From: a virus
Virus record (IMG/VR): IMGVR_UViG_3300027861_000201
Coordinates: 1 to 23,277 of that record
Reading direction: 5' to 3' (one strand)
DNA length: 23,277 nt
In this document: piece after piece, positions 4,491-20,744 of the stretch
Numbering within the stretch: the stretch's first letter is position 1
Layout of the letters: every line of letters starts with the position of its first letter
Translations under genes and position numbers: made by a program
The notes under the pieces: model-generated
Databases searched by the model: none
Told to the model about the DNA's origin: nothing
The model's input: the letters and a program-made list of their open reading frames with translations, nothing else

Positions 4491-4847
4491 ATGATAGAAC
4501 CAATTTACGCAAGTGCTGAACACAAGAACATAATTGAAACTTATATAACAATGTGCACAGAGTTTGCAAAAGATGTAAGTTCAAAATCAAGATACAATAA
4601 TTATTTAGATGTAGTAGATGTTATTTTAGAATACCACAACAACTATGGTAAAGGAGTAAGAGAAAACAATTGGTACGATTGGATTATGATAATACCAACA
4701 AATCTTTCAGTTGCTACAAATGGTTTTTTTGCAGGGCTTGAAACTAAAACAAACGCTTCAACAATAAGAGCATATAAGGTTGTGCTTAGTGAAATGGTTT
4801 TTGATGTAGTAGATAAAATTGACGCTTTAGAACAAGTAAATGACTGA
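4491..4847 (+). CDS. hypothetical protein upstream of the sigma-like gene (118 aa)
   Basis: A 118-residue frame starting 22 bases after the NinG-like stop and overlapping the sigma-like gene by 8 bases. It is predominantly helical with an aromatic middle (NNWYDWIMIIPTN) and a C-terminal acidic helix. There are no recognisable motifs. The overlap with the sigma-like gene means the two are probably co-translated. A partner or antagonist of the sigma-like protein is possible but only a guess. Confidence 0.6.
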   Translation: MIEPIYASAEHKNIIETYITMCTEFAKDVSSKSRYNNYLDVVDVILEYHNNYGKGVRENNWYDWIMIIPTNLSVATNGFFAGLETKTNASTIRAYKVVLSEMVFDVVDKIDALEQVND

Positions 4848-5385
4848 TATATATGCAGAAATATCTAAGCTAAGTTCATTCTTTAGAAATATGTGTTACG
4901 GTATAACGCAAGATGAAGAAGCTATTAATGACGCAGTACAGGAGCTTATGATTTATTTCCTTCAGATGAACCCTGAAACATTAAAAAACATTTACGATAA
5001 AGACGGTGTCAAAGGAATTAAAGGATATGGTGCTGTAGTATTGAAAAGAAGTTTAACAAGTGTAAGAAGTCCTTTCTATTATAAGTATAAAAAATACTAC
5101 ACAAATTTAGTAGGAGTATATACACCATCTTGTAGTCAAAACGCTTTTCATAAAAGTATCTATAACTTGCCTGAAGAAACAGAAAACAATTACAAGTGGG
5201 AGAAGCTAGAAGAAATAGATAAAGTATTAGATAAACAAACGTGGTACGATAAAAAGATATTTGAATTGTATTACTCAGGAGAAACTTTAGACAGTCTAGC
5301 TAAGAAAACAGGGATAAGTAGAAACAGTCTTTTCACTACAATAGATAAGGTAAGGGAAATACTTAAAAAGGAATTGAATGAATAG
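4840..5385 (+). CDS. sigma-70 / ECF-like sigma factor (181 aa)
   Basis: The domain layout is that of a short two-domain sigma factor. Residues about 10-50 (FRNMCYGITQDEEAINDAVQELMIYFLQMNP) resemble region 2, where DNA and core polymerase are bound and a D-A-x-Q-E motif is typical. Residues about 135-178 (DKKIFELYYSGETLDSLAKKTGISRNSLFTTIDKVREILKKEL) form a region 4-type helix-turn-helix that normally contacts the -35 element. The middle linker carries many Lys and Tyr residues. It lies after the replication genes and before the first late-promoter motif, the position expected of a middle gene that turns on late transcription. It could also be a sigma-fold DNA-binding regulator without initiation activity. 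Confidence 0.65.
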   Translation: MTDIYAEISKLSSFFRNMCYGITQDEEAINDAVQELMIYFLQMNPETLKNIYDKDGVKGIKGYGAVVLKRSLTSVRSPFYYKYKKYYTNLVGVYTPSCSQNAFHKSIYNLPEETENNYKWEKLEEIDKVLDKQTWYDKKIFELYYSGETLDSLAKKTGISRNSLFTTIDKVREILKKELNE

Positions 5386-6551: not shown

Positions 6552-6566
6552 ATTCTATTATATACT
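6552..6566 (+). promoter_or_regulatory. late-promoter motif, copy 1
   Basis: ATTCTATTATATACT directly abuts the ATG of the ParB-like gene at 6567. It shares TTCTATTATATA with four other intergenic copies and then diverges (ACT in place of ACAGA). An A-rich AAAATAAATT lies 19 bases upstream of its TCT. If TATTAT is the -10 element, transcription would start at or next to the ATG. Confidence 0.6.
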
Positions 6567-7127
6567 ATGAAACTAAAAATCAACGAATTAAAACCAAACG
6601 AAAGCAATCCTAGAATAATAAAGGAAGCTAAATTTAAAAAACTTGTAAAGTCAATTAAGGACTTTCCTGAAATGCTAGACCTAAGACCAATAATACTTGA
6701 CGAGAACAATGTTATCTTAGGTGGTAATATGAGATACAAAGCTTGTGTTGCAGCAGGGCTTAAAGAAGTGCCTGTTAAAATAGCTAAGGGCTTGACAGAA
6801 GAACAGAAAGAAGAATTTATAGTTAAAGATAATGTAGGCTTTGGTGAATGGGATTGGGATATTCTAGGAAACCAATGGGATAACGCAAAGCTAGGAGAAT
6901 GGGGTATGGATGTATGGCAACCTGAAGAAGCAGTAGACTACTCAGTATTAGAAGATTTAGATTTAGGCTCTACATTACAAGATAAAGAAGCTTCAGTAAA
7001 GAGAGCAATACAGATAGAGTTTGAACCTGAGCATTATGACGAAGCTGTATTACTGATAAACACAGCAAGAAAGGAAGGGAAGAATGTAGGTTTAATTGTT
7101 TTAAATGCTTTTAGAAACGATAAATGA
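6567..7127 (+). CDS. ParB/sulfiredoxin-fold protein of a DNA-modification cassette (186 aa)
   Basis: Residues 1-75 form a ParB N-terminal domain: KINELKPNESNPR, then LDLRPIILDENNVILGG, with GGNMRYKA at 52-59 (the GxxR nucleotide-binding loop) and a VPVKIA strand. KDNVGFGEWDWDIL follows, a segment common in phage ParB-like proteins. Such domains are often found beside DNA methyltransferases or base-modification enzymes, and some have nucleotide-binding or nuclease activity. This gene overlaps the glycosyltransferase by four bases and heads the late unit. It probably guides or supports the modification, by analogy with published TET/JBP neighbourhoods. It lacks the helix-turn-helix of chromosome-partition ParB, so partitioning is unlikely. 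Confidence 0.75.
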   Translation: MKLKINELKPNESNPRIIKEAKFKKLVKSIKDFPEMLDLRPIILDENNVILGGNMRYKACVAAGLKEVPVKIAKGLTEEQKEEFIVKDNVGFGEWDWDILGNQWDNAKLGEWGMDVWQPEEAVDYSVLEDLDLGSTLQDKEASVKRAIQIEFEPEHYDEAVLLINTARKEGKNVGLIVLNAFRNDK

Positions 7128-7864
7128 AAATAGCTATACCCTCATACAAAAGAGCTGAAACACTATGCAAAAAGACATTAAAGTATTTATTACAAGATTG
7201 TAAAATAGATTTGAAATGTATAACAATTTTTGTAGCAAATGAAGAAGAATACAAAGACTATAAAAAATCAGTCAATAAAGGATTAAAAATTGTAATAGGA
7301 AAAGAAACTTTAAAAGGTCAAAGAAATTTTATGGACTTTTATTATGAAGCAGGTGAAAAGGTTTTATTCTTTGATGATGATATTGAAGGTCTTTACATAA
7401 AGTCAGGAAATAAAACTAAATTATTTACAGACTTAGTTTCATTATACAAGATAGGGTTCAATGAATGTGTAAAACATAATACGGCTTTATTTGGAATATG
7501 TGCTGTCAATAATGGTTTTTATATGAATGGTAAAATAAGCACAAATCTTAAATACATAGTGGGCTGTTTCTATGGTCAAATAATTACACAGGACAGAACT
7601 TTGTCTGTTACCTTAGAGGATAAAGAAGATTTTGAAAGGACTATATTGTATTTTGATAAGTATAAAAAAGTAGTCAGATTAAATATGATAGCTCCAAAAA
7701 CTAATTATTATGATGAGGACGGGGGTATGCAAATTACTAGAACAGAAGACAGGGTTACTGCAAGTGCTTTGACGCTTATAAATAAATACCCTCAATACTG
7801 TTCACTAAACACTAAAAAGAAAAGCAGTCATACAGAAATTAAACTAAACTCACGAGCAAAATGA
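7124..7864 (+). CDS. TET-associated glycosyltransferase (TAGT)-like enzyme (246 aa)
   Basis: The sequence has a GT-A glycosyltransferase layout: IAIPSYKRAETL at the N-terminus, an IFVANEEEYKDY strand-helix, GQRNF at 65-69, and the metal and nucleotide-sugar binding cluster FFDDDIEGL with Asp84-86. A helical middle and a C-terminal DGGMQITRTEDRVTASAL block follow. This order matches the TAGT family that was described computationally beside phage TET/JBP dioxygenases and was proposed to add a sugar to oxidised bases. Four-base overlaps tie it to the ParB-like gene before and the dioxygenase after it. I infer transfer of a sugar to a hydroxymethylated base in phage DNA; sugar donor and base are unknown. 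Confidence 0.75.
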   Translation: MKIAIPSYKRAETLCKKTLKYLLQDCKIDLKCITIFVANEEEYKDYKKSVNKGLKIVIGKETLKGQRNFMDFYYEAGEKVLFFDDDIEGLYIKSGNKTKLFTDLVSLYKIGFNECVKHNTALFGICAVNNGFYMNGKISTNLKYIVGCFYGQIITQDRTLSVTLEDKEDFERTILYFDKYKKVVRLNMIAPKTNYYDEDGGMQITRTEDRVTASALTLINKYPQYCSLNTKKKSSHTEIKLNSRAK

Positions 7865-8670
7865 AAACAATTAAACTAAAACAAGTAGAACACAATATTA
7901 AGATAGGTAAAGACTGTCCTTACTATGAACCAAACATAAAAGAAGATTGCCTGTTAGAACTTGACGGAGAGATAGTAGGTTTTTATATTAAAGATGTGTC
8001 AAAGTATAGCGAAAGACTGAGTTTGTTATTAGCAGTTGCTGATAAAGAGTTCAGAGGTGATAATGTTCCAAAAAGTTTATTGGAACGTAGTGATGTTTTT
8101 GATAAAGTTTACAATCAAGGTATGACAAGAAAAGAAGCAAAGGCGACAGGAGTTGTTCAAATGAGTACTATACTCGGCTCTATACCACCTAAACCTCATA
8201 TGCGCAGACCTTATCCAAACATATCTTCAGTACACAGGGATAAGAAAGCACAAACATTTATAAAAGCAATGTGGGGAGCTTGTTTAGAAGCAGAACAAAT
8301 CATTAAAGAAATAACTCCTAAGATATACGAAAGACAACAAGAACTATTTGAAGATGTAAAAGATGAATGGAGATTTGGAACAATGTACACAAGTAGTATA
8401 TCTAACTTTAATATATCAGCACCATTCCACAGAGATACAGGAAACATTCAAGGAACAGTAAACACAATACTTACAAAAAGAAACAACGCTAAAGGTGGCT
8501 GCTTGAATGTGCCTGACTATAATCTAACCTTTGAACAAGCAGATAATTCAATGTTAGTTTACCCTGCTTGGAAGAACGTACACGGAGTAACACCAATAAA
8601 ACCAATAGCAGAAAATGGGTATAGAAATAGTTTAATCTTCTATCCATTGAAAGCATTTAAAGGAATATAA
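7861..8670 (+). CDS. TET/JBP-family 2-oxoglutarate/Fe(II) DNA dioxygenase (269 aa)
   Basis: The C-terminal half shows a complete double-stranded beta-helix dioxygenase core. FHRDTGN holds the iron ligands His190 and Asp192. It is followed by GTVNTILTKRNNAKGGCLNVPDY, a LVYPAWKNVHGVTPI strand with the distal ligand His241, and GYRNSL with Arg255 for 2-oxoglutarate. The run from about residue 176 to 255 follows the phage members of the TET/JBP family, which oxidise the methyl group of a base in DNA (5-methylcytosine for TET, thymine for JBP). The N-terminal 110 residues include KEFRGDNVPKSLLERS and are probably DNA-binding or structural. Co-transcription with the glycosyltransferase supports oxidation followed by glycosylation. 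Confidence 0.8.
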   Translation: MKTIKLKQVEHNIKIGKDCPYYEPNIKEDCLLELDGEIVGFYIKDVSKYSERLSLLLAVADKEFRGDNVPKSLLERSDVFDKVYNQGMTRKEAKATGVVQMSTILGSIPPKPHMRRPYPNISSVHRDKKAQTFIKAMWGACLEAEQIIKEITPKIYERQQELFEDVKDEWRFGTMYTSSISNFNISAPFHRDTGNIQGTVNTILTKRNNAKGGCLNVPDYNLTFEQADNSMLVYPAWKNVHGVTPIKPIAENGYRNSLIFYPLKAFKGI

Positions 8671-8671
8671 T

Positions 8672-9031
8672 ATGGACGAAAGTAGACACATAAAAAAGGA
8701 AAGTATCTTGAAAGCTTTGGAAAAGAGTTTAGGAGTTGTAACAGTTGCGTGTAAGTCAGCAGATGTTCCACGTTCAACATACTATAAATGGCTAAATGAA
8801 GATGAGGAATTTGCTAAACAAGTTCAGGACATTGAAAACATTGCACTAGACTTTGGTGAAAGCCAATTACATAAACAGATAGGAGACGGCTCAACATCAG
8901 CTACAATCTTTTTTTTAAAGACAAAAGGAAAGCGTAGGGGATATGTAGAGAAGTCAGAGTTAGATATAACTTCAGGTGATAAGGTTATCAATATGCCTAT
9001 AATAACATTCGTAGAAACTGATACTGAATAA
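8672..9031 (+). CDS. terS: terminase small subunit (119 aa)
   Basis: The N-terminal half is a helix-turn-helix: ILKALEKSLGVVTVACKSADVPRSTYYKWLNEDEEFAKQV, the usual DNA-binding form in small terminase subunits. An oligomerisation-like helix (ALDFGESQLHKQI) follows, then ATIFFLKTKGKRRGY, a strongly characteristic ending segment of this family. The gene begins two bases after the dioxygenase stop and overlaps the large subunit. Its role is to recognise phage DNA and hand it to the packaging motor. Being in one transcription unit with the modification genes means modified DNA and packaging proteins would be made at the same time. Confidence 0.8.
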   Translation: MDESRHIKKESILKALEKSLGVVTVACKSADVPRSTYYKWLNEDEEFAKQVQDIENIALDFGESQLHKQIGDGSTSATIFFLKTKGKRRGYVEKSELDITSGDKVINMPIITFVETDTE

Positions 9032-10220
9032 GAAATACAATCCATTATTTAATTCTGATGCTAGATACTTTATAATAACAGGTGGTAGGGGTTCAGGAAA
9101 GTCTTTTGCTGTAACAGTCTTTTTGACTTTACTGACTATGACTAAAGGGATAAGAATACTCTTTACTCGTTTCACAATGACCTCAGCTCATTTGTCAATT
9201 ATTCCTGAGTTCTTAGAAAAGATAGGACTTCTAGGGTTTGATGAAGTGTTTAGCATTAATAAAAAAGAAGTAGTCAATACAAAGAATAATTCAGATATAT
9301 TATTTAGAGGTATCAGAACCTCAGCAGGTAACCAAACAGCAAGTCTAAAATCTTTACAAGGAATAAGCACTTGGGTATTAGATGAAGCTGAAGAATTAGT
9401 TGATGAGAATATATTTGATACTATTGATTTAAGTATTAGAGAAAAAGGAATACATAATAGAGTTATACTTATACTGAACCCTGTTACAAAAGAACATTGG
9501 ATATACAAAAGGTTCTTTGAGGACAAAGGCGTAGAGGGTGGTTTTAACGGCTTTAAAGACAATGTATGCTATATACACACCAACTACCAAGACAATAAAG
9601 AAAACCTCTCACAGAGCTTCCTAGAGCGTATTAAGAGCATAAAGCACAGAAACTTTAAAAAGTATCAACACAAAATCTTAGGGGGGTGGTTAGACAAAGC
9701 AGAAGGAGTAGTCTTTGAGAATTGGAGTATAGGAGAATTTAATCCTGACGGACTTCAGACTTCTTGTGGAATGGACTTTGGCTTTAGTGTTGACCCTGAT
9801 AGTCTGACAGAAGTAGCTATTGATAAAAGGAAGCGTAAGATATATTTAAAAGAACATATCTACAAGAATGGTATAAAGTCAAATGAATTAGCTAAAATCA
9901 TATTAGACAAAGTAGATAACAAACTTATAATTGCTGATAGTGCAGAGCCAAGACTAATAGCAGACCTTAGACATTTAGGAGTAAACATCAAACCTGTTAA
10001 AAAAGGAACTATTGAAAGTGGAATTACTCGTATGCAAGACTATGAACTTGTTATAACTCCTGAAAGCACTAACATAGCTAAAGAGCTAAACAATTATATA
10101 TATGCTGACAAAGGCTCAAAACTTTATGTAGATAACTACAATCACGCAATTGACGGTATAAGGTATAATGTAATTTACCACCTAGACAACCCTAACGCAG
10201 GGAAGTATTACGTACAGTAA
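9024..10220 (+). CDS. terL: terminase large subunit, probable CTG start (398 aa)
   Basis: The frame contains the packaging ATPase Walker A GGRGSGKS (residues 20-27 from CTG 9024), Walker B WVLDEAEE (Asp120, Glu121), and the RNase H-like nuclease acids in CGMDFGFSVD (Asp251), IIADSAEP (Asp305) and NYNHAIDGIRY (Asp377). No ATG, GTG or TTG occurs in frame between the stop at 9012-9014 and the Walker A motif; TTG 9123 would delete the ATPase site. CTG 9024, overlapping the small-subunit stop (CTGAATAA), gives an N-terminus NKKYNPLFNSDARYFIITGG that looks natural. ATA 9021 is another possibility. Confidence 0.85.
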   Translation: MNKKYNPLFNSDARYFIITGGRGSGKSFAVTVFLTLLTMTKGIRILFTRFTMTSAHLSIIPEFLEKIGLLGFDEVFSINKKEVVNTKNNSDILFRGIRTSAGNQTASLKSLQGISTWVLDEAEELVDENIFDTIDLSIREKGIHNRVILILNPVTKEHWIYKRFFEDKGVEGGFNGFKDNVCYIHTNYQDNKENLSQSFLERIKSIKHRNFKKYQHKILGGWLDKAEGVVFENWSIGEFNPDGLQTSCGMDFGFSVDPDSLTEVAIDKRKRKIYLKEHIYKNGIKSNELAKIILDKVDNKLIIADSAEPRLIADLRHLGVNIKPVKKGTIESGITRMQDYELVITPESTNIAKELNNYIYADKGSKLYVDNYNHAIDGIRYNVIYHLDNPNAGKYYVQ

Positions 10221-10252
10221 ACTAAAAACAACAAATTTCTATTATATAACAG
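10219..10252 (+). promoter_or_regulatory. late-promoter motif, copy 2
   Basis: TTTCTATTATATAACAG at 10236-10252 ends exactly at the ATG of the tail chaperone gene (10253). It is identical to copies 4 and 5 over TTCTATTATATAACAGA. An A-rich stretch covers the 19 bases upstream. The position implies a very short or absent leader on the tail-module messenger. Confidence 0.65.
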
Positions 10253-19775: not shown

Positions 19776-20744
19776 ATGACAGAAACTAAAATAGTAGAAT
19801 TAGTAATTGCAGATGATAGTCAAGAACTAGCTATTGACGCAATCAGTTTAGTAACTTCACCTGCAATAGAACAAGACTTTGTATTTTTCGGAAAAGAAAA
19901 GAACAACTTGACATTTGCTAAGGTAGATGAGGAGAAAAGAATGTTAATCAGTCCTGCACTTATTCCTAATAAAAATATTTTCAGACACGACCCAAATACA
20001 GACAGCGACTATTATGTTTACTTTTCAAAAGAAACAGTACGTAAGGCTTCTGAATTATATTTAAAACATAATAATCACCATAAAGCTACATACCAACACC
20101 AAGATAGAGTTTCAGGTGTTTTAACAGTTGAAAGTTGGATTAAGGAAGGAGACCAAGATAAGTCTAAGTTATACGGCTACGACTTACCTAACGGCACGTG
20201 GTTTGTAAAAATGAAGATAGAGAATGATGAGCTTTGGAATAAAATCAAAGAAGGAGAATTAAAAGGTCTTTCAATTGAAGGCTACTTTACTAATAAATTT
20301 GAACAAATGCAAAAGAAAGAACCAACTACAGAACAAATACTAAGTGCTTTAAATGAGCTAATAAGAGAAAACAAAACTGAACTTAAGGCTGAGAAAATAT
20401 CTTTGAATGACGCTAAAAAATTAGCTGCACTTGGTAACTCAGCAGATGATTTTAGAACTTATATTTTAGGAAATATAAAATCCCTACAAACATTGTCAAA
20501 AGCAGTAAACGAAGCAAAAAAAGAAGCGAAAGACTTAGAAAGCAACATAAAATCAGCTAAACAGTTGGATAAGGATATACAAAAAATAAAACAAATTTTG
20601 CAAAAAGGTGCAAAAGAATTAGGAGTAAACCCAAATGACATACCTAGTTATAGTGACGCTGATGAAAAACAAGCAAGGTTAAGAGGTGAATTAGACCAAG
20701 CAGAACGAACACTAGCGGGAGTTAATAGTGTTATTAAAATATAA
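19776..20744 (+). CDS. XkdF-like prohead protease with C-terminal coiled coil (322 aa)
   Basis: Residues about 1-180 follow the XkdF-type phage serine protease pattern: IVELVIADDSQELAIDAISLVTSPAIEQDF, KRMLISPALIPNKNIFRHD, YVYFSKETVRKASELYL, ATYQHQDRVSG with possible catalytic His108, VESWIKEG, and WNKIKEGELKGLSIEGYF with possible catalytic Ser166. Such enzymes process capsid and scaffold in the prohead. After residue 185 a separate helical extension of about 135 residues follows, ending with the GAKELGVNPNDIPSY motif shared with the upstream gene. Position directly before scaffold and capsid genes agrees with this role. Confidence 0.7.
   Translation: MTETKIVELVIADDSQELAIDAISLVTSPAIEQDFVFFGKEKNNLTFAKVDEEKRMLISPALIPNKNIFRHDPNTDSDYYVYFSKETVRKASELYLKHNNHHKATYQHQDRVSGVLTVESWIKEGDQDKSKLYGYDLPNGTWFVKMKIENDELWNKIKEGELKGLSIEGYFTNKFEQMQKKEPTTEQILSALNELIRENKTELKAEKISLNDAKKLAALGNSADDFRTYILGNIKSLQTLSKAVNEAKKEAKDLESNIKSAKQLDKDIQKIKQILQKGAKELGVNPNDIPSYSDADEKQARLRGELDQAERTLAGVNSVIKI

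Follow-up and report, generated by a model that had tools for sequence, protein, structure and literature searches.

A ParB-TET/JBP gene cassette beside the terminase genes of a marine phage carries an exchangeable slot for its glycosyltransferase

The window analyzed here, a 23,277-base IMG/VR record that is, like its nearest relatives, a genome fragment, carries genes for a ParB-domain protein, a TAGT glycosyltransferase and a TET/JBP-type dioxygenase, followed by terS and terL. The TAGT gene occupies a slot between the ParB and dioxygenase genes whose contents are swapped among relatives. We consider it likely that the cassette is a system for post-replicative DNA hypermodification, in which thymine would be hydroxylated and then glycosylated by the TAGT enzyme, the ParB-domain protein would help with placement, and the genes would be co-expressed with terS and terL. 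Systems of this kind are already known from mycobacteriophages (ParB-TET-TAGT-terminase) and from flavophage P12024L (TET-TAGT), and the slot swapping is the interesting part. The features are as follows.

4840-5385, + strand: sigma-factor-like protein (PHROG RNA polymerase sigma factor, 2.2e-4)
6554-6564, + strand: promoter-like motif TCTATTATATA before the ParB gene (5 exact copies in the window)
6567-7127, + strand: ParB_N-domain protein, 186 aa (Pfam ParB_N, 1.9e-6; 5' of the dioxygenase gene in 107/109 loci)
7124-7864, + strand: TAGT glycosyltransferase (GT-A fold), 246 aa, in the exchangeable slot (Pfam TAGT, E 4.8e-10; AF2 pLDDT 91; Foldseek)
7861-8670, + strand: TET/JBP-type 2-oxoglutarate/Fe(II) dioxygenase, 269 aa (Pfam Tet_JBP, E 3.4e-9; AF2 pLDDT 90; Foldseek)
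8062-8190, + strand: hypervariable segment of the dioxygenase, about residues 68-110 (DNA identity to near-isogenic relatives)
8672-9031, + strand: terminase small subunit, terS (PHROG terminase small subunit, 4.9e-8)
9030-10220, + strand: terminase large subunit, terL, exact start codon uncertain (Pfam Terminase_3, 1e-30)
10238-10248, + strand: promoter-like motif TCTATTATATA behind terL, opening the following unit (5 exact copies in the window)

As the initial annotation had described, the three open reading frames are joined by 4-base overlaps, each reading ATGA, and run into terS, with a single base separating the dioxygenase stop codon from the terS ATG at 8672. No in-frame ATG, GTG or TTG precedes the Walker A motif of terL in 9030-9123, and the first, at 9123, would remove that motif; the junction sequence is conserved in relatives, and terL likely uses a non-standard start. 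Further along the window, 19776-20744 matched families of head maturation proteases; it also hit PHROG 1530, whose DNA methyltransferase label looks like a fusion artefact here. The source phage is marine and its host probably flavobacterial, the host being supported indirectly because Nonlabens phage P12024S/L has the nearest terL in culture (63%) and a homologue of the dioxygenase is present in a Flavobacteriaceae MAG.

The dioxygenase passed the curated Pfam Tet_JBP cut-off narrowly (36.6 bits versus 34.9). Direct sequence search of the protein against the PDB returned chance matches only, while a profile from a wider alignment had TET2 sequences as its best, weak matches (E 0.014), with the HRDxxN, H(G/A)(V/T)TP and RxSLxFY motifs in register with TET2. 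The His190-x-Asp192, His241 and Arg255 set read from the sequence at the outset is present and, together with N195, S257 and Y261, invariant across 28 dioxygenases with identity down to 22%. An AlphaFold2 model built from 25 relatives had a pLDDT of 90 and a pTM of 0.88 (the other four models, 68-79). When this model was compared with the PDB by Foldseek, ranks 1-26 were taken by CcTet, human TET2, NgTET1 and CMD1, with FTO and AlkB after them, and among viral models (BFVD) the best named matches were mostly JBP1/TET-domain proteins. Because TET enzymes ranked ahead of other oxygenases, the protein does not fall among unrelated hydroxylases, a placement that the initial annotation had singled out for checking. 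The predicted reaction is oxidation of the methyl group on 5mC or on T within DNA.

RefSeq and PHROGs name TET-like proteins “queuine tRNA-ribosyltransferase” (PHROG 6059; NC_011044, NC_020847, NC_020857), a label that we rejected for this protein since Pfam and the fold both give TET/JBP. In S-CBWM1 and Cr30, proteins annotated “SNF2 DNA repair” lie near a TAGT relative (L095, 3729-6061; L164, 728-5891), and the S-CBWM1 protein is a TET-like fold match.

The glycosyltransferase passed Pfam TAGT (PF20691) with 40.1 bits versus a cut-off of 27.5, and Foldseek matched its model to GT-A enzymes such as AvpGT, TarS and TarP, and a GT-A fold has likewise been reported for T6 TAGT (PMC13216743). The DDD cluster (Asp84-86, the DxD metal motif) is present; across 27 slot glycosyltransferases Asp85 is invariant and Asp169 nearly so. 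Both enzyme assignments are thus backed by Pfam profiles and Foldseek folds. For the T-even type TAGT, sugar transfer to a hydroxymethylated base or to a DNA-borne sugar has been described. By phmmer, the C-terminus of the glycosyltransferase matched 2od4. The ParB-like domain assigned to the first gene scored above the curated ParB_N cut-off. NCBIfam parB_part, a model of the full-length partition protein, gave 21.6 bits versus a cut-off of 58; because ParB_N is the sole match, we call the product a ParB-domain protein and not a partition protein.

The initial annotation, whose enzyme assignments held, was only partly supported as a whole, and the exchangeable slot was missing from it. Across 122 loci with a ParB gene, the slot held several groups of TAGT-type glycosyltransferases with less than 40% identity between groups, some of them missed by Pfam TAGT. 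Other contents were a P-loop kinase, an FkbM methyltransferase, GT32 plus TAGT, TAGT plus a sulfotransferase, TAGT plus a nucleotidyltransferase-like protein, and a PLP enzyme plus an amino acid:DNA transferase; a few slots were empty. Even the 16 loci whose ParB and TerS share no less than 96.7% and 97.4% identity, respectively, with those of the window comprised five slot classes, one of them the P-loop kinase, with genes that are unrelated or barely related. DNA identity was 22-64% in the swapped slot versus 89-99% in the flanking ParB half-genes. Since the main classes recur in separate samples, assembly chimeras are unlikely.

Among the alternative enzymes, the slot kinase shares 56% identity with the C-terminal domain of a protein (L155, 6413-7918) in which an amino acid:DNA transferase, of a family tied to thymidine hypermodification, is fused to a slot-type P-loop kinase; this gene lies beside one for a PLP-dependent enzyme, within a ParB-TET slot. 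The FkbM-family methyltransferase occurs alone with TET in L092 (16431-17132), L071, L074, L140, L143, L145, L147 and L148, which would predict an O-methylated hydroxymethyl base. Isolates have ParB-TET, then either TAGT, deacetylase and kinase or an amino acid:DNA transferase, and then the terminase. Donny, Klevey and Altadena have deacetylase genes following TAGT, which points to N-acetylation of the sugar in these phages. In LilMcDreamy and MO526, genes for an aspartyl/asparaginyl hydroxylase-like protein and an FAD oxidoreductase stand behind TET and the amino acid:DNA transferase (L157, 2656-3759; L158, 6556-7347) and may provide extra tailoring steps. Nearly all slot enzymes derivatize a hydroxyl or are tied to base hypermodification, which fits a dioxygenase whose product is a hydroxymethyl base, and the hydroxyl on which they act is plausibly that hydroxymethyl group. 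Swapping of the sugar-adding gene suggests that DNA chemistry changes rapidly, as a means of escaping host defences. A limited literature search found no description of slot exchange among near-identical phages or of the FkbM variant.

A second variable region lies within the dioxygenase itself. Segment 8062-8190 had 47-65% DNA identity to several near-isogenic relatives, compared with 78-94% for the surrounding gene, so that residues 68-110 vary as abruptly as the slot but separately from slot class. The segment has an HTH-like look (GMTRKEAKATGVVQMST), with many types among relatives. Loop type was associated with slot class more than in shuffles, in a comparison uncorrected for relatedness; strict coupling was rejected, as the slot proteins of L001 and L063 are each 98.8% identical to that of the window and yet occur with different loops. 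We speculate that the segment is a target-recognition loop that sets the target sequence. It is conceivable, at somewhat less than even chances, that a constant thymine-hydroxylating TET works with a finishing enzyme that is swapped rapidly (several glycosyltransferases, kinase, FkbM O-methyltransferase, amino acid:DNA transferase) and with a recognition loop that varies on its own, giving near-identical phages chemically different DNA (base-J-like, perhaps with methoxymethyl bases) in an arms race against modification-sensing host defences.

The motif TCTATTATATA that the initial annotation had noted upstream of the cassette occurs five times in the window (6554, 10238, 19190, 20768 and 23153), always on the + strand and shortly before a gene, versus 0.04 copies expected, and is probably a phage-specific late promoter. 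Because it stands before the ParB gene and again after terL, at sites that are both kept in many relatives, ParB to terL is probably a single transcription unit. A scan for Sigma-70 promoters found no excess over shuffles, and the Bacteroidetes TAnnTTTG motif was uninformative (23 versus 22 on the two strands). The sigma-factor-like gene is conserved 5' of the cassette in relatives, and P12024S_33, a few genes 5' of terL, is annotated Sigma-70 region 2; our guess is that the sigma-factor-like protein reads TCTATTATATA.

We also determined how often the cassette adjoins the terminase genes, counting those loci that extend 1.5 kb or more on the side in question, a few of them isolate records. 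A ParB gene was found 5' of the dioxygenase in 107 of the 109 loci and terS or terL 3' of it in 101 of 109, across different TerL types; the exceptions include other terminase types. The linkage recurs in unrelated phages, namely Mycobacterium phages Nigel, Donny and LilMcDreamy, Gordonia phage LittleMunchkin, Microbacterium phages Terij and MO526, and the Prochlorococcus-isolated MED4-184 and MED4-117. The gene linkage and the common promoter-like motif behind the proposed co-expression with the terminase are real. Arthrobacter phages Klevey and Altadena and flavophage P12024L, however, keep TET and TAGT away from the terminase, and timing of modification to packaging is thus no more than a possibility. 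The same three phages, and the slot being itself a recombination hot spot, favor the view that a plastic site next to terS carries the cassette as a passenger, with no functional tie to packaging. The linkage across TerL types and across Mycobacterium, Gordonia, Microbacterium and Prochlorococcus-isolated phages argues against this view, to which we give almost as much credence as not; it concerns location alone and is compatible with the oxidation-glycosylation chemistry.

To weigh thymine against 5-methylcytosine as the target base, we looked for enzymes that could supply the substrate. C5-methyltransferase (PF00145) was found in none of 11 complete isolate genomes carrying the dioxygenase family, nor in P12024L, and was missing from the window and from 55 of 58 fragments. 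Thymidylate-synthase-like enzymes, by which 5hmdU nucleotides are usually made, were likewise missing (PF00303; 0/11 isolates, 0/28 fragments), and TET would therefore supply the hydroxymethyl group. The absence of C5-methyltransferase makes thymine the likelier target, and TET as the hydroxymethyl source, together with the thymidine-type finishing enzymes, favors it as well; the initial annotation had left the base open. A search among P12024L relatives for a control TET clade linked to C5-methyltransferase found the enzyme in 1 of 19 and hence offered no contrast. By profile alignment, the base-reading TET2 residues N1387 and H1904 correspond here to N195, which is kept, and to L263, the Leu in place of His being a further point for thymine.

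The cytosine route, in which a host or phage C5-methyltransferase would make 5mC, the dioxygenase 5hmC and TAGT its glycosylated form, keeps a small probability since the fragments are incomplete and N195 is TET2-like. This pathway is experimentally known and said to be common in phages (PMC12730594). The methyltransferase is present in 3 of the 58 fragments, it could sit off the contig in the window and its nearest relatives, and 5mC could come from the host. Against it stand the 11 complete genomes and P12024L, and the thymidine-type finishing enzymes that also occupy the slot, and we regard it as unlikely, at perhaps one chance among several.

Less probable still is a non-DNA target, for example a virion protein or tRNA, with the glycosyltransferase decorating capsid or tail: phage glycosyltransferases can decorate virions (cited in PMC12619734) and the PHROGs label points to tRNA. 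On the other side, TET enzymes acting on nucleic acids lead the structure matches, amino acid:DNA transferase and kinase take turns in the slot, nearly every locus has a ParB-domain gene joined to it, and neither Pfam nor fold backs the queuine label.

Under the preferred reading, DNA hypermodification, the TET/JBP-type dioxygenase would act on a pyrimidine of the phage DNA and hydroxylate its C5-methyl group, most likely converting thymine to 5-hydroxymethyluracil, and TAGT would move a sugar from a nucleotide-sugar onto the hydroxyl so formed, with a base-J-like nucleotide as the outcome. A probable role of the ParB-like protein is to bind DNA and aid placement of the modification, and expression with terS-terL would mean that modification precedes packaging or accompanies it. 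In this scheme TAGT is an interchangeable finishing module. The glycosylated hypermodified base proposed in the initial annotation is supported by anatomy and comparison, while the product itself is a prediction. If the reading is true, these phages would be a natural set differing mainly in the enzyme that finishes one base modification, and would allow direct comparison of how each DNA decoration affects restriction and other defences. Should the target be thymine, the system would parallel base J in a bacterial virus, with enzymes that write new groups on ordinary DNA without a prior methyltransferase.

Such systems were reportedly predicted by Iyer et al. in 2013. The modules of actinophages (Mycobacterium Donny/Acadian and Nigel, Arthrobacter Altadena) likewise have a ParB-like gene and then a TET/JBP dioxygenase; TAGT may be present or absent, the terminase usually follows directly, and the genome is without C5-methyltransferase. 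Their dioxygenases, however, are only 22-26% identical overall to that of the window, and TAGT stands behind the dioxygenase instead of between ParB and dioxygenase, often with an extra deacetylase or kinase. Prochlorococcus-isolated MED4-184, MED4-117 and P-HS2 share the order ParB-[slot]-TET-small gene-terL and have a dioxygenase 48% identical, but their slot holds an FkbM-family methyltransferase where the window has TAGT. The statement that the combination is little described with a flavobacterial host was partly wrong, as Nonlabens phage P12024L (Inhavirus; JQ823123, with a PF12851 note at deposit) has a TET/JBP dioxygenase adjoining TAGT and a terL 63% identical to that of the window. 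Its dioxygenase belongs to another clade (25% over 115 aa), and it lacks the ParB-slot-TET-terS order, with an N6/N4 methyltransferase adjoining. Kinetoplastid base J synthesis (JBP1/2 and a glucosyltransferase) is alike in the proposed logic, thymine hydroxylation in DNA and then glycosylation. The cytosine pathway of phage TET enzymes, which includes a C5-methyltransferase (Burke et al. 2021; Pyle et al. 2024; cited in PMC12730594 and PMC12619734), shares TET oxidation followed by a glycosyltransferase but starts from enzymatic 5mC, whereas complete genomes with the dioxygenase family of the window are without such a methyltransferase. In Rhodococcus phage Tonitrus, genes in a similar layout have been put forward as a putative system for thymidine hypermodification (PMC11955845): it too has ParB, a TET-like J-binding protein and then finishing enzymes. 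Where the window has TAGT, Tonitrus has an aGPT-Pplase2-domain protein together with a 5-hmU DNA kinase.
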